Of a stretch of DNA of 32,262 bases, positions 3,297 to 22,165 are shown piece by piece. This DNA comes from a bacterium (GTDB lineage Bacteria; DRYD01), in the NCBI GenBank assembly GCA_026418475.1, contig JAOABG010000009.1, forward strand, positions 1-32,262, in the 5' to 3' direction. Below the pieces are notes generated by a model. The model searched no databases. It was not told the origin of the DNA and was given only the letters and a program-made list of their open reading frames with translations. Positions within the stretch are counted from its first letter, which is position 1. Every line of letters starts with the position of its first letter. The position numbers and the translations under genes are program-made.

Positions 3297-3818
3297 TTAT
3301 AATTTTTTAGTTTCAAAAAAATAGAACATTCCAATAGCAAATATAGCTAAAATAGCAATGATAGTGTAAGGTGAAACATTAAAATACTGATATATGGTAA
3401 TTTTTCCCAAGTTGCCAAACTCAATAATGGGTTTCAAATATGGATATAAATTGGCAAAGATCATAGAACCAACCAACATACCAAGTATAGCAAATAAAGC
3501 GTGAATCCTTCCTTCAGCCAAAGCAGCAACAGAAGTCCCAGGACAATACCCAGTCATAGCCCAACCTAAACCAAACAGAATACCACCCACAACAATTGCC
3601 CCAATCATCATAGGTTTCAAATGAAGACTAATTAATCCCATCTGATACAAAACATTTACACCTATAGAACCAACAAGGACAGCAGAAAACATAAACTTTA
3701 TAATAGTCATATCTTTTAGTAATACCGCCGAGATTTGTTTTTCATATCTTATAACCCTTGCAAAAGTAAGTATAGAACCAAAAATTACTCCAAACACTAA
3801 ACCAAGTATTAATTCCAC
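3297..3818 (-). CDS. YeeE/YedE (TsuA-like) transporter, second half-protein
   Basis: A 173-residue membrane protein with about five hydrophobic segments and the family motif GYCPGT (Cys92). YeeE/YedE proteins, including TsuA, import thiosulfate through a path lined by conserved cysteines. The full-length form is about twice this size and has two pseudo-symmetric halves. Here the halves are separate genes, and this one carries the GYCPGT half. The start is a GTG at 3818, placed 7 bases after AGGAGGTG; that site overlaps the 3' end of the upstream half gene, whose stop is 6 bases before this start. Last gene of the sulfur operon. The 98 bases between it and the next gene (3199-3296) hold the ribosome binding site of the GTPase gene and no clear terminator. 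Thiosulfate is the likely substrate, but another sulfur species is possible. Confidence 0.85.
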   Translation of the reverse strand: MELILGLVFGVIFGSILTFARVIRYEKQISAVLLKDMTIIKFMFSAVLVGSIGVNVLYQMGLISLHLKPMMIGAIVVGGILFGLGWAMTGYCPGTSVAALAEGRIHALFAILGMLVGSMIFANLYPYLKPIIEFGNLGKITIYQYFNVSPYTIIAILAIFAIGMFYFFETKKL

Positions 3819-3824
3819 ACATAA

Positions 3825-4352
3825 TCACCTCCTACTTCTATATATCAAGTTTGCAAATATTATAGCAGAAGAGAAAAAGACAATAACTGCAAGCAAAGAA
3901 CCCAATGAAAGCTGCATCATGCCACTCAACCCATGTCCACTTGGACAACCATCGGCCAACCTGGCACCAAAAGCAACAAAAAACCCTCCAACAAAAGCAA
4001 AAACAGCTCTCAGAATAAAGTTATTCCCAAACCGTTCCCTGAAAATGGGAGGTACCAACTCAATCCTAAAACTCCCCGACAGAATAGAAGAAATCAAAGC
4101 CCCCAAAAATATACCAATAACAAACATAAATTGCCAATCAATGGTCAATTTCACTTTTTCATAATACTGATTTGATAAATCATGAACAAAAAACTTTTCT
4201 ATTAAACCTGCCATTTTAACAAAAGTAGTAGAAGTGCCAAAAAATTTGGTATCACCTATCAATACCGTGGTTAAATACACTACCAGTATGGCAAGTATTC
4301 CAACCAAAATACCACCAATATAGGGATTTAAAACCCTTTCCTTCATACTCAT
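3825..4352 (-). CDS. YeeE/YedE (TsuA-like) transporter, first half-protein
   Basis: A 175-residue membrane protein and the partner of the next gene. It has about four hydrophobic segments and the motif RLADGCPSGHGLSG (Cys136), the other conserved cysteine signature of YeeE/YedE. Together the two halves would rebuild one thiosulfate-type sulfur transporter in the cytoplasmic membrane. The hydrophilic loop at 50-72 lies between the first two segments. I chose the ATG at 4352, 5 bases after AAAGG; a GTG at 4355 and an ATG at 4346 are also in frame. The gene begins 9 bases after the repressor stop, so translation of repressor and transporter is probably linked. Confidence 0.85.
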   Translation of the reverse strand: MSMKERVLNPYIGGILVGILAILVVYLTTVLIGDTKFFGTSTTFVKMAGLIEKFFVHDLSNQYYEKVKLTIDWQFMFVIGIFLGALISSILSGSFRIELVPPIFRERFGNNFILRAVFAFVGGFFVAFGARLADGCPSGHGLSGMMQLSLGSLLAVIVFFSSAIIFANLIYRSRR

Positions 4353-4361
4353 CACAACCTT

Positions 4362-4661
4362 TCATAAATATTTTTCTATTAGTTTGCTTACAGATGATAT
4401 CTTTTCCTTCAATTCCTTATATTCATCAGATTCTCTATCATTAATACAGCAGTTATTTTCCAAAATCTTTGACACAGCATTTGTAAAAGTTTTATGTATA
4501 GCTTGTTTAACAGCTGCTAATTGATGTATAACAATATCACAACTCTCTTCTTTCTCTATCATATTTATTATAGCTCTTATCTGACCTTCTATTTTAGACA
4601 ACCTCGCAACAAGTTCCCTTTTATCAGCCTTATCCATTATCTTTAAATCATTCTTCATCAT
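4362..4661 (-). CDS. CsoR/CstR-family transcriptional repressor
   Basis: A 99-residue all-helical repressor of the CsoR/RcnR/FrmR/CstR family, with the opening helix motif RLSKIEGQIRAIINMIEKEESC. It keeps the first family cysteine (C41) and has a Cys pair at 71-72 about 30 residues on. The copper-type C-H-C set needs a His four residues before the second Cys; here that place holds Leu or Glu. This favours a CstR-like persulfide sensor, in which two cysteines become cross-linked by sulfur and DNA is released. Its place within a persulfide-handling operon supports that. A formaldehyde (FrmR) or other metal sensor is less likely. The start at 4661 follows a strong AAGGGGGTG site. The likely target is the GGGTA cluster upstream of the first operon gene. 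Confidence 0.83.
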   Translation of the reverse strand: MMKNDLKIMDKADKRELVARLSKIEGQIRAIINMIEKEESCDIVIHQLAAVKQAIHKTFTNAVSKILENNCCINDRESDEYKELKEKISSVSKLIEKYL

Positions 4662-4674
4662 AATCTCACCCCCT

Positions 4675-4706
4675 TAAATATTCACAATTTTAAATATTCA
4701 CAATTT
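4675..4706. repeat. Perfect 16-bp tandem duplication at the 3' end of the exporter gene
   Basis: TAAATATTCACAATTT occurs twice head to tail (4675-4690, 4691-4706). One copy contains the exporter's TGA stop and last codons; the other fills the gap before the repressor's ribosome binding site. Confidence 0.9.
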
Positions 4707-5903
4707 TACGAACTGCCCCAAAATAAGGATTACAAAATAAGAAACTAAACCAACAAATACAGCACCAATAAAGCCAATAACGAAAGGTTTTATTCCTATT
4801 CCTCTAAAAACAGAAAAATTCGTATTTAACCCAACCGCAGCCATAGCAGTACCCAACAAATACTTAGAACCCCAAAGTTCACCAATATTATTAACCAAAC
4901 TTTTCCATGCAGTAGAATCGAAAATTCCCAAAGCAAGACTTCCATTCATTAAAGCTACATCCCCAACGGACCTCAAAACAGCCATAAGAATAAAACCAAT
5001 TATAAACGTTGGTATTAAAGAAACAATATTTATTTTCTGATGTTCTTCATCCACTTTACTCCTTAAATAAAGGAAGGCAAGCAGAGGAACAACAACTGCA
5101 AGAAATAAATTTCTCGTCAATTTAGTTACAGTAGCAGCTTTAAATACAGTATCATCAGAAAAAACCTCCTTGTAGGTAAGAGCAGCACCGACTACCTGTG
5201 AAGTCTCATGAATAGCAGTTCCCAAAAACAATCCTATCTGTTCAGAAGTGGTAAACAAAAATTTAGCTAAATATGGATATAGAAACATAGCTAATAAACC
5301 AAATATAGTTACGTTAGCTACAGAGTAAGCTATTTCTTTATTATCAGCTTTTATTGCAGGAGATACAGAAACAATAGCAGTAACACCACATATACTTGTA
5401 CCAGCAGCTATTAAAGTCCCCAATTTCTCAGGTAACTTCATCAATTTATTGATAAAGTAAATAAATATCAGAGCTGAAAAAATTACAATTAACACAATTG
5501 GTATTCCCCAAAATCCCAATTTCAGCACCTCATTAACACTGAGCTTTATCCCAACAAATATTATACCTAATCTGAGAATTTTAGTGACAGAAAAATCTAT
5601 TCCATTCTTGAAAATATCAGAAAGCTTAAAAATATTAGAAACTATCATACCAAGAATTATAGCAATCAAAACTGAAGAGATAGGACTGCTCTTACCAGTG
5701 GGATCTATACCCTGAATTTTCAGTAAAAATTTTCCAATACCATCAGCTATAGGTATAGCGAGTAACATCAAAAGAACTGATAAAGCAAGTCCTGGAATTA
5801 TAGACGGTAATAAACGTAAATTTTTGACTCCGAATAAAGCCTTGATAAATTTATTTTCATTTTCAATTTCTTTATCTACACTTTCAGTTTCCTTTATGCC
5901 CAT
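4698..5903 (-). CDS. YeiH-family putative sulfate/sulfur-anion exporter
   Basis: A 401-residue integral membrane protein of the UPF0324/YeiH family (PF03601), normally described as a putative sulfate exporter. About ten hydrophobic segments follow a 30-residue acidic, charged N-terminal tail. Family-like stretches include GTSICGVTAIVSVSPAIKAD (about 168-187), LGTAIHETSQVVGAALTY and the C-terminal GTAMAAVGLNTNF segment. The start at 5903 follows GGAAGGAG by 9 bases. It sits between DsrE2 and the repressor in the sulfur operon. The likely role is to export an oxidised or waste sulfur anion such as sulfite, made when persulfides are oxidised. The exact ion is not established for the family. Confidence 0.87.
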   Translation of the reverse strand: MGIKETESVDKEIENENKFIKALFGVKNLRLLPSIIPGLALSVLLMLLAIPIADGIGKFLLKIQGIDPTGKSSPISSVLIAIILGMIVSNIFKLSDIFKNGIDFSVTKILRLGIIFVGIKLSVNEVLKLGFWGIPIVLIVIFSALIFIYFINKLMKLPEKLGTLIAAGTSICGVTAIVSVSPAIKADNKEIAYSVANVTIFGLLAMFLYPYLAKFLFTTSEQIGLFLGTAIHETSQVVGAALTYKEVFSDDTVFKAATVTKLTRNLFLAVVVPLLAFLYLRSKVDEEHQKINIVSLIPTFIIGFILMAVLRSVGDVALMNGSLALGIFDSTAWKSLVNNIGELWGSKYLLGTAMAAVGLNTNFSVFRGIGIKPFVIGFIGAVFVGLVSYFVILILGQFVKL

Positions 5904-5925
5904 AAAACATAACTCCTTCCCAAAA

Positions 5926-6537
5926 CTATATAAATATGGTCATAGCAGAATTAAGAGCGTGCGATAAGAAATAGGCAACTCCTCCAGATTCAACACCTTC
6001 CATAAGTTCATCATCTTGAATACCCAAAACATCCTTAGACATTTCACAGGCTACAAATCTTATTCCAAGATCTTTAGCAATCTTTATCAAATCCTCAAGA
6101 GTATTAACATTCTTTTCTTTCATCATATTTTTCAACATCATAGCTCCTATACCTAAAAAATTCATCTTTGAAACCGGTAAATCATTATAACTTTTGGGAT
6201 TAAGCAGAGAGAATAATTTCTGATGCCATTTCTTATTTTTGATGTTTCTTTTCACTTTTATAGAATTAATTCCCCAGAAAGTGAAAAAAACAGTAACCTC
6301 CTTACCAAAAGAAGCAGCACCAGTTGCAATTATCATCGAAGCAAGAACCCTATCCAAATCACCTGAGAAAACAACTATTGAAACCTTATTTCTCTGATTT
6401 ATAACTTCTGAAAGCTGGTCTTTCAAATTATTCAACTCTTTCTGTAATTCGTTTATCTGATTGTACATTTCTGCAATAGATTTTTCTGTAACAGATTGGT
6501 TTTCAAACGATTCATTTCTTACAGCTTCAAAAGACAT
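5926..6537 (-). CDS. DsrE2-type (DsrE/F/H-like) sulfur carrier protein
   Basis: A 203-residue protein. A hydrophilic coiled-coil-like N-terminus (about 20-50) is followed by a DsrE/DrsE_2 domain that starts KVSIVVFSGDLDRVLASMII. The domain has the TFWG motif and the ACEMSKDVLGI segment, with the probable sulfur-binding Cys164. Short hydrophobic stretches (65-90, 125-138) are typical of this group. DsrE2 proteins are usually encoded beside TusA and a rhodanese and are thought to relay persulfide sulfur, though their exact role is less clear than that of TusA. The start has an ideal AAGGAGG site 7 bases upstream. It is 12 bases downstream of tusA. Confidence 0.88.
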   Translation of the reverse strand: MSFEAVRNESFENQSVTEKSIAEMYNQINELQKELNNLKDQLSEVINQRNKVSIVVFSGDLDRVLASMIIATGAASFGKEVTVFFTFWGINSIKVKRNIKNKKWHQKLFSLLNPKSYNDLPVSKMNFLGIGAMMLKNMMKEKNVNTLEDLIKIAKDLGIRFVACEMSKDVLGIQDDELMEGVESGGVAYFLSHALNSAMTIFI

Positions 6538-6549
6538 ATATTTTCCTCC

Positions 6550-6798
6550 TTATTTTTTCTTAACATAATGTACATATATTTCTTTCCCATTTTCATCTTT
6601 TTCAGTAGCTTGAGAAATCAATTCTATTGTTTTATCAGTATTTGCCCAACCTTGGAAATCCTTAACTGATCCCTTATCTGTTGCTATTACTTTAATGACA
6701 GTTCCAGATTGAACTTTGTTTAGTTCCTGCTTTGTCTTTACAAGTGGCATAGGACAGGAAAGCCCCTTAACATCAAGAAGAATGTCAAAGTTAGTCAT
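6550..6798 (-). CDS. TusA-family sulfurtransferase
   Basis: An 82-residue protein with the complete TusA/SirA signature GLSCPMPLVKTKQEL, in which Cys15 of the CPxP motif carries the persulfide. The rest follows the family: GTVIKVIATDKGSVKDFQGWA and a C-terminal strand. It would pass sulfane sulfur between the upstream rhodanese-MBL protein and DsrE2 or other acceptors in the cytoplasm. The start at 6798 has a very strong AAGGGAGGTGAT site. The gene lies 90 bases downstream of the rhodanese-MBL gene, across a hairpin. A role in tRNA thiolation, as in E. coli, is less likely given the neighbours. Confidence 0.93.
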   Translation of the reverse strand: MTNFDILLDVKGLSCPMPLVKTKQELNKVQSGTVIKVIATDKGSVKDFQGWANTDKTIELISQATEKDENGKEIYVHYVKKK

Positions 6799-6849
6799 TC
6801 TTAAATCACCTCCCTTATTCTTTATGCTACTTTATAATATCTTATAACA

Positions 6850-6878
6850 GTAGAGAGGAGAATTTATCTCCTCTCTAC
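6850..6878 (-). terminator. Hairpin between the persulfide dioxygenase and tusA genes
   Basis: Perfect 12-base arms GTAGAGAGGAGA / TCTCCTCTCTAC (6850-6861, 6867-6878) with a 5-base loop. It lies just after the stop of the rhodanese-MBL gene. No T run follows on either strand, so full termination is doubtful. An RNA-processing or mRNA-stabilising hairpin that sets different expression of the first gene and the rest is equally possible. Confidence 0.5.
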
Positions 6879-6888
6879 CAAAATTATA

Positions 6889-8088
6889 TTATCCATTAAC
6901 GTATGCTTGTGAAAGGGCACATATATTCTTCCCAGTTTCTAGCTCTTGAGCTCTTTCTTCGTCCACTTCAATAAGCTCTATATTAACTCTCTTTATATCA
7001 ACATATTCTTGTGGGAAAACAGGTAAACTGGAAAGCATATACTTTACAAATTCATCCTTACCTTTTGTTATTAGTAGATCAAGAGCTTCATTTGACTTCT
7101 TAAGAACCCCTAAATTCTCTATAAATAAACCTTCTTCATTGGCTTCTGAGAATTTACTAAAGTGAGCAGGTAGAACAACTATATTATCATCAAAATTAAC
7201 CAATCTCAAAAGAGATTCAGCTTGAATCGGAGCCCATGACTCTCCCCTACCACCTAAATCAGGTCTTGCAACAGAAACTATAAATATCGTATCACCCGTG
7301 AAAAGATATTTATCATTTACTAAAAACACCAAATTACCCAACGTATGCCCTGGAACATGTAAAACTCTTATTTTAGATTTCCCTAGAGTCAATACATCTC
7401 CATCTTTAAGAAATGAGAACTGAACTTTTCCAATCATCACATCAACGGGATGTATGGCATCAAATGGGTGAAAATAGTAGGGAACATTTAAAATTTTGGA
7501 CAACTTAGGACCACCACTTATATGATCAGCATGTATATGTGTATCCAGTACGAAATTAACAGTTGCTCCTTTTTCCTTGATAAAATTCAAATATTTTTCA
7601 ACATGTCTCAAAGGATCAATAATAGTTGCTTGGCCATCAGAAATAATAACCCAACTCAAGTCACCTCTGGAAACTCTACTAATTTGATAAATTGAAAGTT
7701 CAGGAGATTCAACAACCGTCTTGTAATCATAATAGTTGAACCAGTTTTGCATTCCTCCTTCTATATTGTAAGCATTGTATCCCAGTTTTACAAGATTTCT
7801 TGTGAATATTTCTGATGTTCCACCTTGATCACAAACTATATAAAGTTCCTCTTTTTTAGAAAACATATTTGGGAAGTTTTTCTCTATATAATTTGTCATA
7901 TCTTTATCTATATCTCCAGAATCTAGCATTTGTGCATAATACATGTTAAATATAGTGAAATTATTTTTACCTTCTATTTTTTGAGCTTTGAACTTTTCTG
8001 GATTCCTTAGGTCAATAACAGTGACCTTTTCATCTTTAAGTATCTTCTCGTACAACTGGCCTGGGGATATCACTCTTTGGCAACTCAT
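6889..8088 (-). CDS. Rhodanese-MBL fusion, probable persulfide dioxygenase
   Basis: A 399-residue fusion. The N-terminal rhodanese domain (about 1-122) has an active-site loop YIVCDQGGTSE with Cys86. It joins a metallo-beta-lactamase domain (about 130-350) with THIHADH (H184, H186, D188, H189), VPGHTLG (H248), FTGDTIF (D266) and LPAH (H309). These are the ligands of ETHE1-type enzymes, which use non-haem iron and O2 to oxidise glutathione or low-molecular-weight persulfide to sulfite. Staphylococcal CstB joins the same modules in the opposite order. The last 75 residues are charged and unassigned. It is the first gene of the sulfur operon; the ATG at 8088 follows GGAGGTG. If the organism is anaerobic, oxygen-dependent activity is puzzling, and a sulfurtransferase or hydrolase role should be kept open. 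Confidence 0.87.
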   Translation of the reverse strand: MSCQRVISPGQLYEKILKDEKVTVIDLRNPEKFKAQKIEGKNNFTIFNMYYAQMLDSGDIDKDMTNYIEKNFPNMFSKKEELYIVCDQGGTSEIFTRNLVKLGYNAYNIEGGMQNWFNYYDYKTVVESPELSIYQISRVSRGDLSWVIISDGQATIIDPLRHVEKYLNFIKEKGATVNFVLDTHIHADHISGGPKLSKILNVPYYFHPFDAIHPVDVMIGKVQFSFLKDGDVLTLGKSKIRVLHVPGHTLGNLVFLVNDKYLFTGDTIFIVSVARPDLGGRGESWAPIQAESLLRLVNFDDNIVVLPAHFSKFSEANEEGLFIENLGVLKKSNEALDLLITKGKDEFVKYMLSSLPVFPQEYVDIKRVNIELIEVDEERAQELETGKNICALSQAYVNG

Positions 8089-8117
8089 TTAGCTCACCTC
8101 CTGTTTCACTCTTCTAT

Positions 8118-8180
8118 TACCCCTTTACCCTATACCCATACCCCTATCTGTTATACCCCTACCACTATATTATTATACCC
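8118..8180 (-). promoter_or_regulatory. Cluster of GGGTA elements, candidate CstR-type operator
   Basis: In 63 bases of an AT-rich spacer there are six TACCC words (plus strand: 8118, 8126, 8133, 8139, 8154, 8176); three extend to TACCCC and partial TACC copies occur nearby. On the transcribed strand they read GGGTA or GGGGTA. CsoR/CstR/FrmR-family operators are typically a C- or G-tract flanked by AT, for example ATACCCC-type sites; the segment 8151-8170 (TATACCCCTACCACTATA core) fits best. The cluster lies between the -10 box and the start of the first operon gene, a good place for repression. Binding is inferred. Confidence 0.6.
8172..8177 (-). promoter_or_regulatory. Probable -10 box of the sulfur operon promoter
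   Basis: The minus strand reads TATAAT here, giving a predicted start near 8165 and a leader of about 75 bases. The hexamer 17 bases upstream reads GAAGGG, a poor -35; TTGTGA is present but 21 bases away. A weak -35 is compatible with a regulated promoter. It overlaps the outermost GGGTA element. Confidence 0.5.
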
Positions 8181-8214: not shown

Positions 8215-8242
8215 AAAAATATTGATTTTTATCAATATTTTT
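8215..8242 (-). terminator. AT-only hairpin, possible terminator of the housekeeping unit
   Basis: Perfect 12-base arms AAAAATATTGAT / ATCAATATTTTT (8215-8226, 8231-8242) around TTTT. It lies about 110 bases after the last gene of the unit ending at 8351 and before the sulfur promoter. The stem is weak (AT only), but its 3' arm ends in T5. It may terminate, or it may be an AT-rich protein-binding site upstream of the sulfur promoter. Confidence 0.4.
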
Positions 8243-8275
8243 GAATAAATATAAAATTTTTGAATAAATATAAAA
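8238..8275. repeat. Perfect 19-bp tandem duplication
   Basis: TTTTTGAATAAATATAAAA occurs twice head to tail (8238-8256, 8257-8275), overlapping the edge of the hairpin. The rest of the 262-base spacer 8089-8350 is AT-rich and without a gene. Confidence 0.92.
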
Positions 8276-8350: not shown

Positions 8351-8629
8351 CTATTTTTTGAGCACAAAATCCACATGTATTTTCTTATTAATTTTTGCAC
8401 CGTAAGCCATAACTATTGCTTTAACCGAAGTTAACAGTACTTTATTTTTCACTATAAAATTGTAATCATTTTTGGCTGTTAAAACTTTTAAATATATATT
8501 TTTTGCATCCTCTTTGTAATTAATAGAAAAATTTGAAAAAACTGTAGAAAGAAGATAATTCAAAATTTCCTTTGAAGTCTCAGCATAATTGGCCACTTTA
8601 TCACCACTGCTCAAATTGTTATCCAACAT
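8351..8629 (-). CDS. Small KhpA-like protein with a degenerate KH motif
   Basis: A 92-residue protein whose C-terminal half matches the shape of KhpA-type KH domains. The stretch KNIYLKVLTAKNDYNFIVKN is followed by KVLLTSVKAIVMAYGAKINK and a final KKIHVDFVL strand, as in the family's IGKqGR-x-AkAiRtvvkAaaak-x-VxVeI. The RNA-binding GxxG loop, however, reads KNKV (61-64). Lys-rich content would still allow RNA contact. I place the start at the ATG 8629, five bases after AAGGTGG; the in-frame GTG at 8638 falls inside that site. It is 23 bases after glyA and the last gene of the housekeeping run. The identification rests on pattern only and could be wrong. Confidence 0.6.
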   Translation of the reverse strand: MLDNNLSSGDKVANYAETSKEILNYLLSTVFSNFSINYKEDAKNIYLKVLTAKNDYNFIVKNKVLLTSVKAIVMAYGAKINKKIHVDFVLKK

Positions 8630-8652
8630 AAAAACCACCTTCCAAACACTTT

Positions 8653-21578: not shown

Positions 21579-22130
21579 GTGAATAGAAAATCTATTAAAC
21601 TGGGTCAAAAAGTTTTGGAAATAGTCTTGGGGGATATAACCAATCAGCCAGATATAGAAGCAATTGTCAATTCTGCTAATAGAGATCTAAAGCCCGGAGG
21701 AGGAGTCTCTGGAGCCATACACAGAAGAGCTGGTCCACAATTATATGAATCCTCAAAAAAATTGGCTCCCATAAAAGTGTCACAAGCAGTTATAACAGAA
21801 GGTTTCAATTTACCCAACAAATACATCATACATACCTTAGGACCAGTATTTGGAGTAGACAAACCAGAAAGTGAATTACTGAAACAAACATACATAAACT
21901 GTATCGAGTTAGCTGACAAATATAATATAAAGTCCATAGCTTTTCCATCAATTTCAACTGGAATATTCGGATATCCAATAGAATCAGCTTCACATATAGC
22001 AATAAAAACTATAGAAACAGAATTACCAAAAACGAAAATAGATTTAGTCAGAATAGTATTATATACTCTGGAAGATTATAAAGTTTATGAAGGGGTTGTA
22101 GCTCAAAAGGACAGAGCGTTGCCCTCCTAA
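21579..22130 (+). CDS. Macro-domain protein, reading frame ends inside tRNA-Arg
   Basis: A 183-residue MacroD/YmdB-type macro domain, expected to bind ADP-ribose and remove it from O-acetyl-ADP-ribose or proteins. The signatures are GDITNQPDIEAIVNSANRDL (about 18-37), GGGVSGAIHRRAGP and the phosphate loop SISTGIFGYP. The start is taken as the GTG at 21579; no good ribosome binding site is seen and a start a few codons later is possible. The last 13 codons (EGVVAQKDRALPS) and the TAA stop are the tRNA-Arg gene read as protein. The stop uses the last anticodon base and the next two loop bases. If the tRNA is cut out of this transcript, the mRNA loses its stop codon. The domain itself is complete before the overlap. 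Confidence 0.85.
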   Translation: MNRKSIKLGQKVLEIVLGDITNQPDIEAIVNSANRDLKPGGGVSGAIHRRAGPQLYESSKKLAPIKVSQAVITEGFNLPNKYIIHTLGPVFGVDKPESELLKQTYINCIELADKYNIKSIAFPSISTGIFGYPIESASHIAIKTIETELPKTKIDLVRIVLYTLEDYKVYEGVVAQKDRALPS

Positions 22131-22165
22131 GGCAAAGGTTGCCGGTTCGATTCCGGCCAACCCCA
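22092..22165 (+). tRNA. tRNA-Arg (anticodon CCU)
   Basis: Acceptor arms GGGGTTG/CAACCCC, D-arm GCTC/GAGC, anticodon stem TTGCC/GGCAA with loop CTCCTAA (anticodon CCT, reads AGG), T-arm GCCGG/CCGGC with TTCGATT, discriminator A. CCA is not encoded. It overlaps the 3' end of the macro-domain gene and lies 11 bases before dnaA. Confidence 0.98.

Follow-up and report, generated by a model that had tools for sequence, protein, structure and literature searches.

A putative CstR-controlled sulfane-sulfur homeostasis operon with a rhodanese-MBL fusion enzyme and an unusual upstream GGGTA array

The stretch of DNA analysed here (the window, 32 262 nt) carries seven minus-strand ORFs that run from position 8088 down to 3297 with intergenic gaps of 90, 12, 22, 36, 6 and 6 nt, and in a profile search each of them passed the curated cut-off of a Pfam family. 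Coding sequence ends at 8088 on the upstream side, and 8089–8180 is promoter DNA. From upstream to downstream the features are:

8118–8180, minus strand: six GGGTA half-sites of like orientation ahead of the first gene, a candidate non-canonical CstR operator
6889–8088, minus strand: Rhod-MBL (Pfam Rhodanese and Lactamase_B), rhodanese domain N-terminal, MBL fold C-terminal
6550–6798, minus strand: TusA sulfur carrier with an SCPMP motif (PF01206, 64.8 bits)
5926–6537, minus strand: DsrE2-like sulfur carrier (DrsE_2; PF13686, 165 bits) with a single Cys in VACEMS
4698–5903, minus strand: YeiH-superfamily permease (Cons_hypoth698; PF03601, 237.5 bits), a putative sulfite/sulfate/thiosulfate exporter
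4362–4661, minus strand: CsoR-family repressor of the CstR type (Trns_repr_metal; PF02583)
3825–4355, minus strand: PmpA/YedE1-type half (Sulf_transp), equivalent to the TsuA C-terminal half, with the Cys293 equivalent in LADGCPSG
3297–3818, minus strand: PmpB/YedE2-type half (Sulf_transp, also DUF6691), equivalent to the TsuA N-terminal half, with the Cys91 equivalent in TGYCPGT

An earlier note had proposed a set of seven same-strand genes (rhodanese-MBL, TusA, DsrE2, a YeiH-type exporter, a CstR-like repressor and a split thiosulfate-type importer), and the ORFs and Pfam matches bear out the set at family level, the last two genes forming a YeeE pair in two parts, as they do the fusion of both enzyme domains in one ORF; the single strand and the gaps of 6 to 90 nt support a single operon. 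Calling the operon 'complete' was too strong, since none of its genes encodes SQR. The NCBIfam curated cut-offs were missed for DsrE2 (NF047629, 86 bits against 210), TusA (NF001423), YeiH (TIGR00698, 154 bits against 232.6, although the superfamily cut-off of PF03601 was passed) and the TsuA models (NF052577 and NF041049 scored the importer halves far under cut-off), so these names hold at family or superfamily level and not at orthologue level. Gene content, gene order and the intact catalytic and redox residues described below are read directly from the sequence. A conserved 95-aa ORF without a match in Pfam or NCBIfam lies on the same strand directly upstream of the operon (8351–8638) and recurs in congeners G003 and G005. 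Elsewhere in the window, a macro-domain ORF (21579–22130) overlaps the start of a tRNA-Arg gene (22092–22165).

The seven-gene order is identical in two congeners (G003 and G004), and a third (G005) is represented by a short contig with only Rhod-MBL, TusA, DsrE2 and CstR. Neither TusA nor a full-length Rhod-MBL match was found in the incomplete genomes of two members of the sister genus and one of the sister family, and the operon thus looks genus-level; all genomes of the phylum are incomplete (71–90%), which makes such absences provisional. The phylum is represented by only seven genomes, and the Thermotogota placement suggested earlier is therefore unlikely.

The rhodanese domain of Rhod-MBL has its active Cys86 in the loop CDQGGT, and the MBL domain carries THIHADHIS, H248, D266, H309, an RPD motif and then a C-terminal Cys390. 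The protein aligned over its full length with proteins from Bacilli, Haloarchaea, Chloroflexota, Gammaproteobacteria, Armatimonadota and Bipolaricaulota, and Cys86, H184, H186, D188, H189, H248, D266, R275, D277, H309 and Cys390 were invariant in an alignment of 44 diverse sequences spanning several phyla (a C-terminal Cys is present in 44/44 Rhod-MBL proteins; the codon of residue 390 lies at 6916–6918). The persulfide dioxygenase (PDO) motif T-H-x-H-A-D-H-x-T/S is found at T183–S191, together with the two-His-one-Asp iron-site residues (H184, H248 and D266) and an invariant Arg-x-Asp pair (R275/D277; cf. R163 of hETHE1); both T-H-x-H-A-D-H-x-S and R-x-D are described features of PDOs (PMC6060420). 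The final residue of the CDQGGT loop is Thr, which can replace the usual Arg at the end of the loop in another rhodanese (PMC8533005). An AlphaFold model (pLDDT 94) retrieved 3tp9, 3r2u (CstB), 4chl (ETHE1, TMt 0.85) and 5ve5 (BpPRF) as top PDB folds in Foldseek, with glyoxalase II and β-lactamases ranked below the PDOs. Cys390 may correspond to the essential C247 at the C-terminal end of hETHE1. Two residues past H309, a position assigned by motif only and not by structural alignment, the protein has Ser311 and not Tyr; the GSH-binding Tyr197 of ETHE1 presumably sits two residues past the equivalent of H309. In a quick tree the Rhod-MBL of the genus grouped with an Armatimonadota sequence (SH-aLRT 87), and the clade around them also holds Bipolaricaulota, Chloroflexota and Gammaproteobacteria.

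Metal ligands of MBL proteins are common to hydrolases such as glyoxalase II, and all two-metal ligands are kept here (H184, H186, D188, H189, H248, D266 and H309). The domain might therefore be an O2-independent hydrolase or sulfurtransferase, e.g. a two-metal persulfide or thioester hydrolase, so that sulfur would be moved and not oxidised within an anaerobic sulfur metabolism; that no COX1 or haem-copper oxidase was found in the genome, and that its three POR genes are compatible with anaerobic fermentation, would fit this. We nevertheless regard such a role as unlikely in view of the PDO motifs and the ranking of folds, and many relatives of the enzyme belong to Bacilli and Haloarchaea that are aerobes. 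The genome, moreover, encodes an adjacent CydA and CydB (cytochrome bd), superoxide dismutase (SOD) and an AhpC/TSA peroxiredoxin, from which it follows that the host probably meets low O2 and that O2 use by Rhod-MBL is plausible. An O2-using dioxygenase, which had been thought unexpected in this lineage, would thus present no paradox. The CydA-CydB pair (L101:6877–9275) lies near a 2-oxoacid:ferredoxin oxidoreductase gene of the same genome. Sulfite reduction was considered as a sink and rejected, as no NIR_SIR/DsrAB gene was found in the genome.

The repressor, encoded by the sole CsoR-family gene found in the genome, has Cys41 and a C-terminal Cys72/73, and alignment revealed no His at the CsoR copper-ligand position; the second Cys is missing from the CstR of congener G005. 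Its top NCBIfam matches are RcnR, RicR and FrmR, all below cut-off, which could point to a copper or nickel sensor and hence to a metal-stress operon. We consider this very improbable: the protein has two Cys only and lacks the His ligand, its nearest solved structure is PDB 7mq3, a pneumococcal CstR, and no metal transporter is found among the operon genes.

The last two genes had been read as a split thiosulfate-type TsuA. TsuA is a single chain of ~330–350 aa with nine helices; here there are two genes, whose products (173 and 176 aa, against the usual ~130 aa for PmpA/PmpB-type chains) match the PmpA/PmpB (YedE1E2) type, a two-gene layout already described (PMC11582611), and each half keeps the single essential Cys expected of it. 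Proteins of this type from Cupriavidus and Sinorhizobium import zero-valent sulfur when placed in E. coli, where the single-chain YedE3 form gave no such import (PMC10812762). An importer pair of this kind, in one operon with what is the genome's sole TusA as far as found, would also suit an operon that serves mainly sulfur supply, with PmpAB importing, TusA and DsrE2 delivering to biosynthesis and the enzyme acting as an overflow valve. This seems improbable, as TusA was not found in the two sister-genus genomes, so that the family can do without it, repressors of this type are released by excess sulfane sulfur, and exporter and oxidase genes suit disposal. A YeiH homologue also lies inside the same operon in Bipolaricaulota (L020) and adjoins Rhod-MBL in a further locus (L021).

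The DNA in front of the first gene is unusual. Six GGGTA half-sites occur within 63 nt on the coding strand (8118–8180), whereas elsewhere on that strand no stretch of 75 nt holds more than two, and none of the six has a TACCC partner; a TATAAT (8177–8172) overlaps the first half-site. Arrays of three GGGTA are rare genome-wide, none of the others being dense; a triple at G000:C33 was dropped, being inside a band-7-like coding region. The congener loci have four (G003), four (G004) and two (G005) half-sites. Across 79 related loci (1394 kb) we counted 79 sites of the form TACCC-N4-GGGTA, against one in a single mononucleotide shuffle, and each other spacing from 0 to 11 occurred once or not at all. 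Most of these sites (70/79) precede cluster genes by no more than 250 nt. Of the 50 loci that encode CstR, 36 have a site, compared with 6 of the 29 that lack the repressor; in the Bipolaricaulota locus a site takes up the interval from TTGACA to TATAAT. No such site occurs in the window or in the three congener loci. We infer that the CstR-like repressor may bind the GGGTA array. The CstR of the genus may even have switched from the inverted TACCC-N4-GGGTA to a direct-repeat array, controlling a Rhod-MBL/YeiH/PmpAB combination not seen elsewhere, a tentative proposal to which we give slightly less than an even chance; the literature examined describes no direct-repeat binding mode for CsoR-family proteins, and the combination was unseen in the other loci examined. 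Scans for promoter and terminator consensus sequences yielded no more than the same scans of shuffled DNA.

Further upstream lies a perfect AT-rich palindrome, AAAAATATTGAT-AAAA-ATCAATATTTTT (8216–8243), whose core TTGATAAAAATCAA recurs in front of a peroxiredoxin gene (L111:1012) as well as near an SOD/redoxin gene group (L112:1543). The core (8222–8235) fits the FNR consensus; its identity as an FNR box was rejected because a search of the genus turned up no HTH_Crp_2 protein.

Kits of this type are known in other microbes. The merger that the earlier note regarded as new is already established in Bacilli, which carry CstR, DsrE2, TusA and Rhod-MBL clusters: in B. licheniformis, YrkD is a CstR that represses a cluster with DsrE, a rhodanese, the putative PDO YrkH, TusA and TauE, a repression that is lifted by elemental sulfur (PMC9918477). 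The Bacillus yrkD-yrkE-yrkF-yrkH-yrkI-yrkJ cluster and related Bacilli loci (L014, L018, L033 and L050) share with the present operon a CstR-type repressor, DsrE2, TusA, a rhodanese and one permease, and the Bacilli loci read have the same Rhod-MBL domain order. They differ in having TauE for YeiH and additional genes for a rhodanese and a TusA-rhodanese, and in lacking a PmpAB pair; the Bacilli loci have canonical inverted operators, and the B. licheniformis cluster, unlike the operon here, has SQR and a second PDO. Five of the genes (Rhod-MBL, TusA, DsrE2, YeiH and CstR) are in the same order in Candidatus Bipolaricaulota SKW78 (L020), whose Rhod-MBL is ~50% identical to that of the operon; in that locus PmpAB was not found and the promoter has canonical TACCC-N4-GGGTA operators.

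The Staphylococcus aureus cst operon (CstR, TauE, CstA, CstB and SQR) likewise combines CstR control, a TusA/rhodanese/DsrE relay and a PDO with rhodanese. Its CstA is one fused protein whereas TusA and DsrE2 are separate here, its CstB has the MBL domain before the rhodanese and not after it, and it has SQR but no PmpAB, the reverse of the present case. In the bigR/blh and yedE1-yedE2-pdo operons of Proteobacteria, PmpAB/YedE1E2 adjoins a sulfurtransferase-dioxygenase or PDO, as here, but TusA and DsrE2 are not described; bigR/blh also differs in its ArsR-type BigR regulator and in a Blh with DUF442 in place of the classical rhodanese. The bigR/blh operon keeps respiration going under sulfide stress at low O2 (PMC5823870), and a similar role might be offered for the present operon, only as an analogy. 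Haloarchaeal plasmid clusters (L015, L016, L017 and L019) have a Rhod-MBL of like domain order followed by a YeeE pair, with TusA/DsrE2 adjacent; they differ in that CstR and YeiH are absent and TusA/DsrE2 divergent.

Against these known clusters, the present variant has YeiH for TauE, an added PmpAB pair, a shorter relay and an altered operator. What is new is the mix of parts and the unusual switch region in front: among the loci examined, CstR, YeiH and PmpAB in one Rhod-MBL operon, and indeed a PmpAB-type pair with CstR at all, occur only in this genus, a statement restricted to a sample of the best 80 of >555 matches.

The sulfane-sulfur sensing and clearance function proposed earlier is supported, and we think it likely that the locus is a CstR-controlled sulfane-sulfur homeostasis operon for sulfane-sulfur-induced import, relay and oxidation. 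Accumulating zero-valent sulfur or persulfides would cross-link the two cysteines of the CstR-like protein, causing it to leave the upstream G-rich array and so turn on all seven genes, its own included. PmpAB would import zero-valent sulfur as thiol-bound persulfide, and TusA, DsrE2 and the rhodanese domain would carry the sulfur as protein persulfide. With O2, the ETHE1-like mononuclear iron site of the MBL domain would oxidise the persulfide to sulfite (or thiosulfate), and the YeiH-type permease would export the oxidation product.

Such an operon would extend CstR-controlled persulfide clearance to a small bacterial phylum that has been poorly sampled and whose genomes encode cytochrome bd, and would connect it with an import pair described mainly in Proteobacteria. 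Across the family, the nearly invariant TACCC-N4-GGGTA signature may serve as a simple guide to CstR regulons; this genus, as the exception, would allow a change of operator to be tested.
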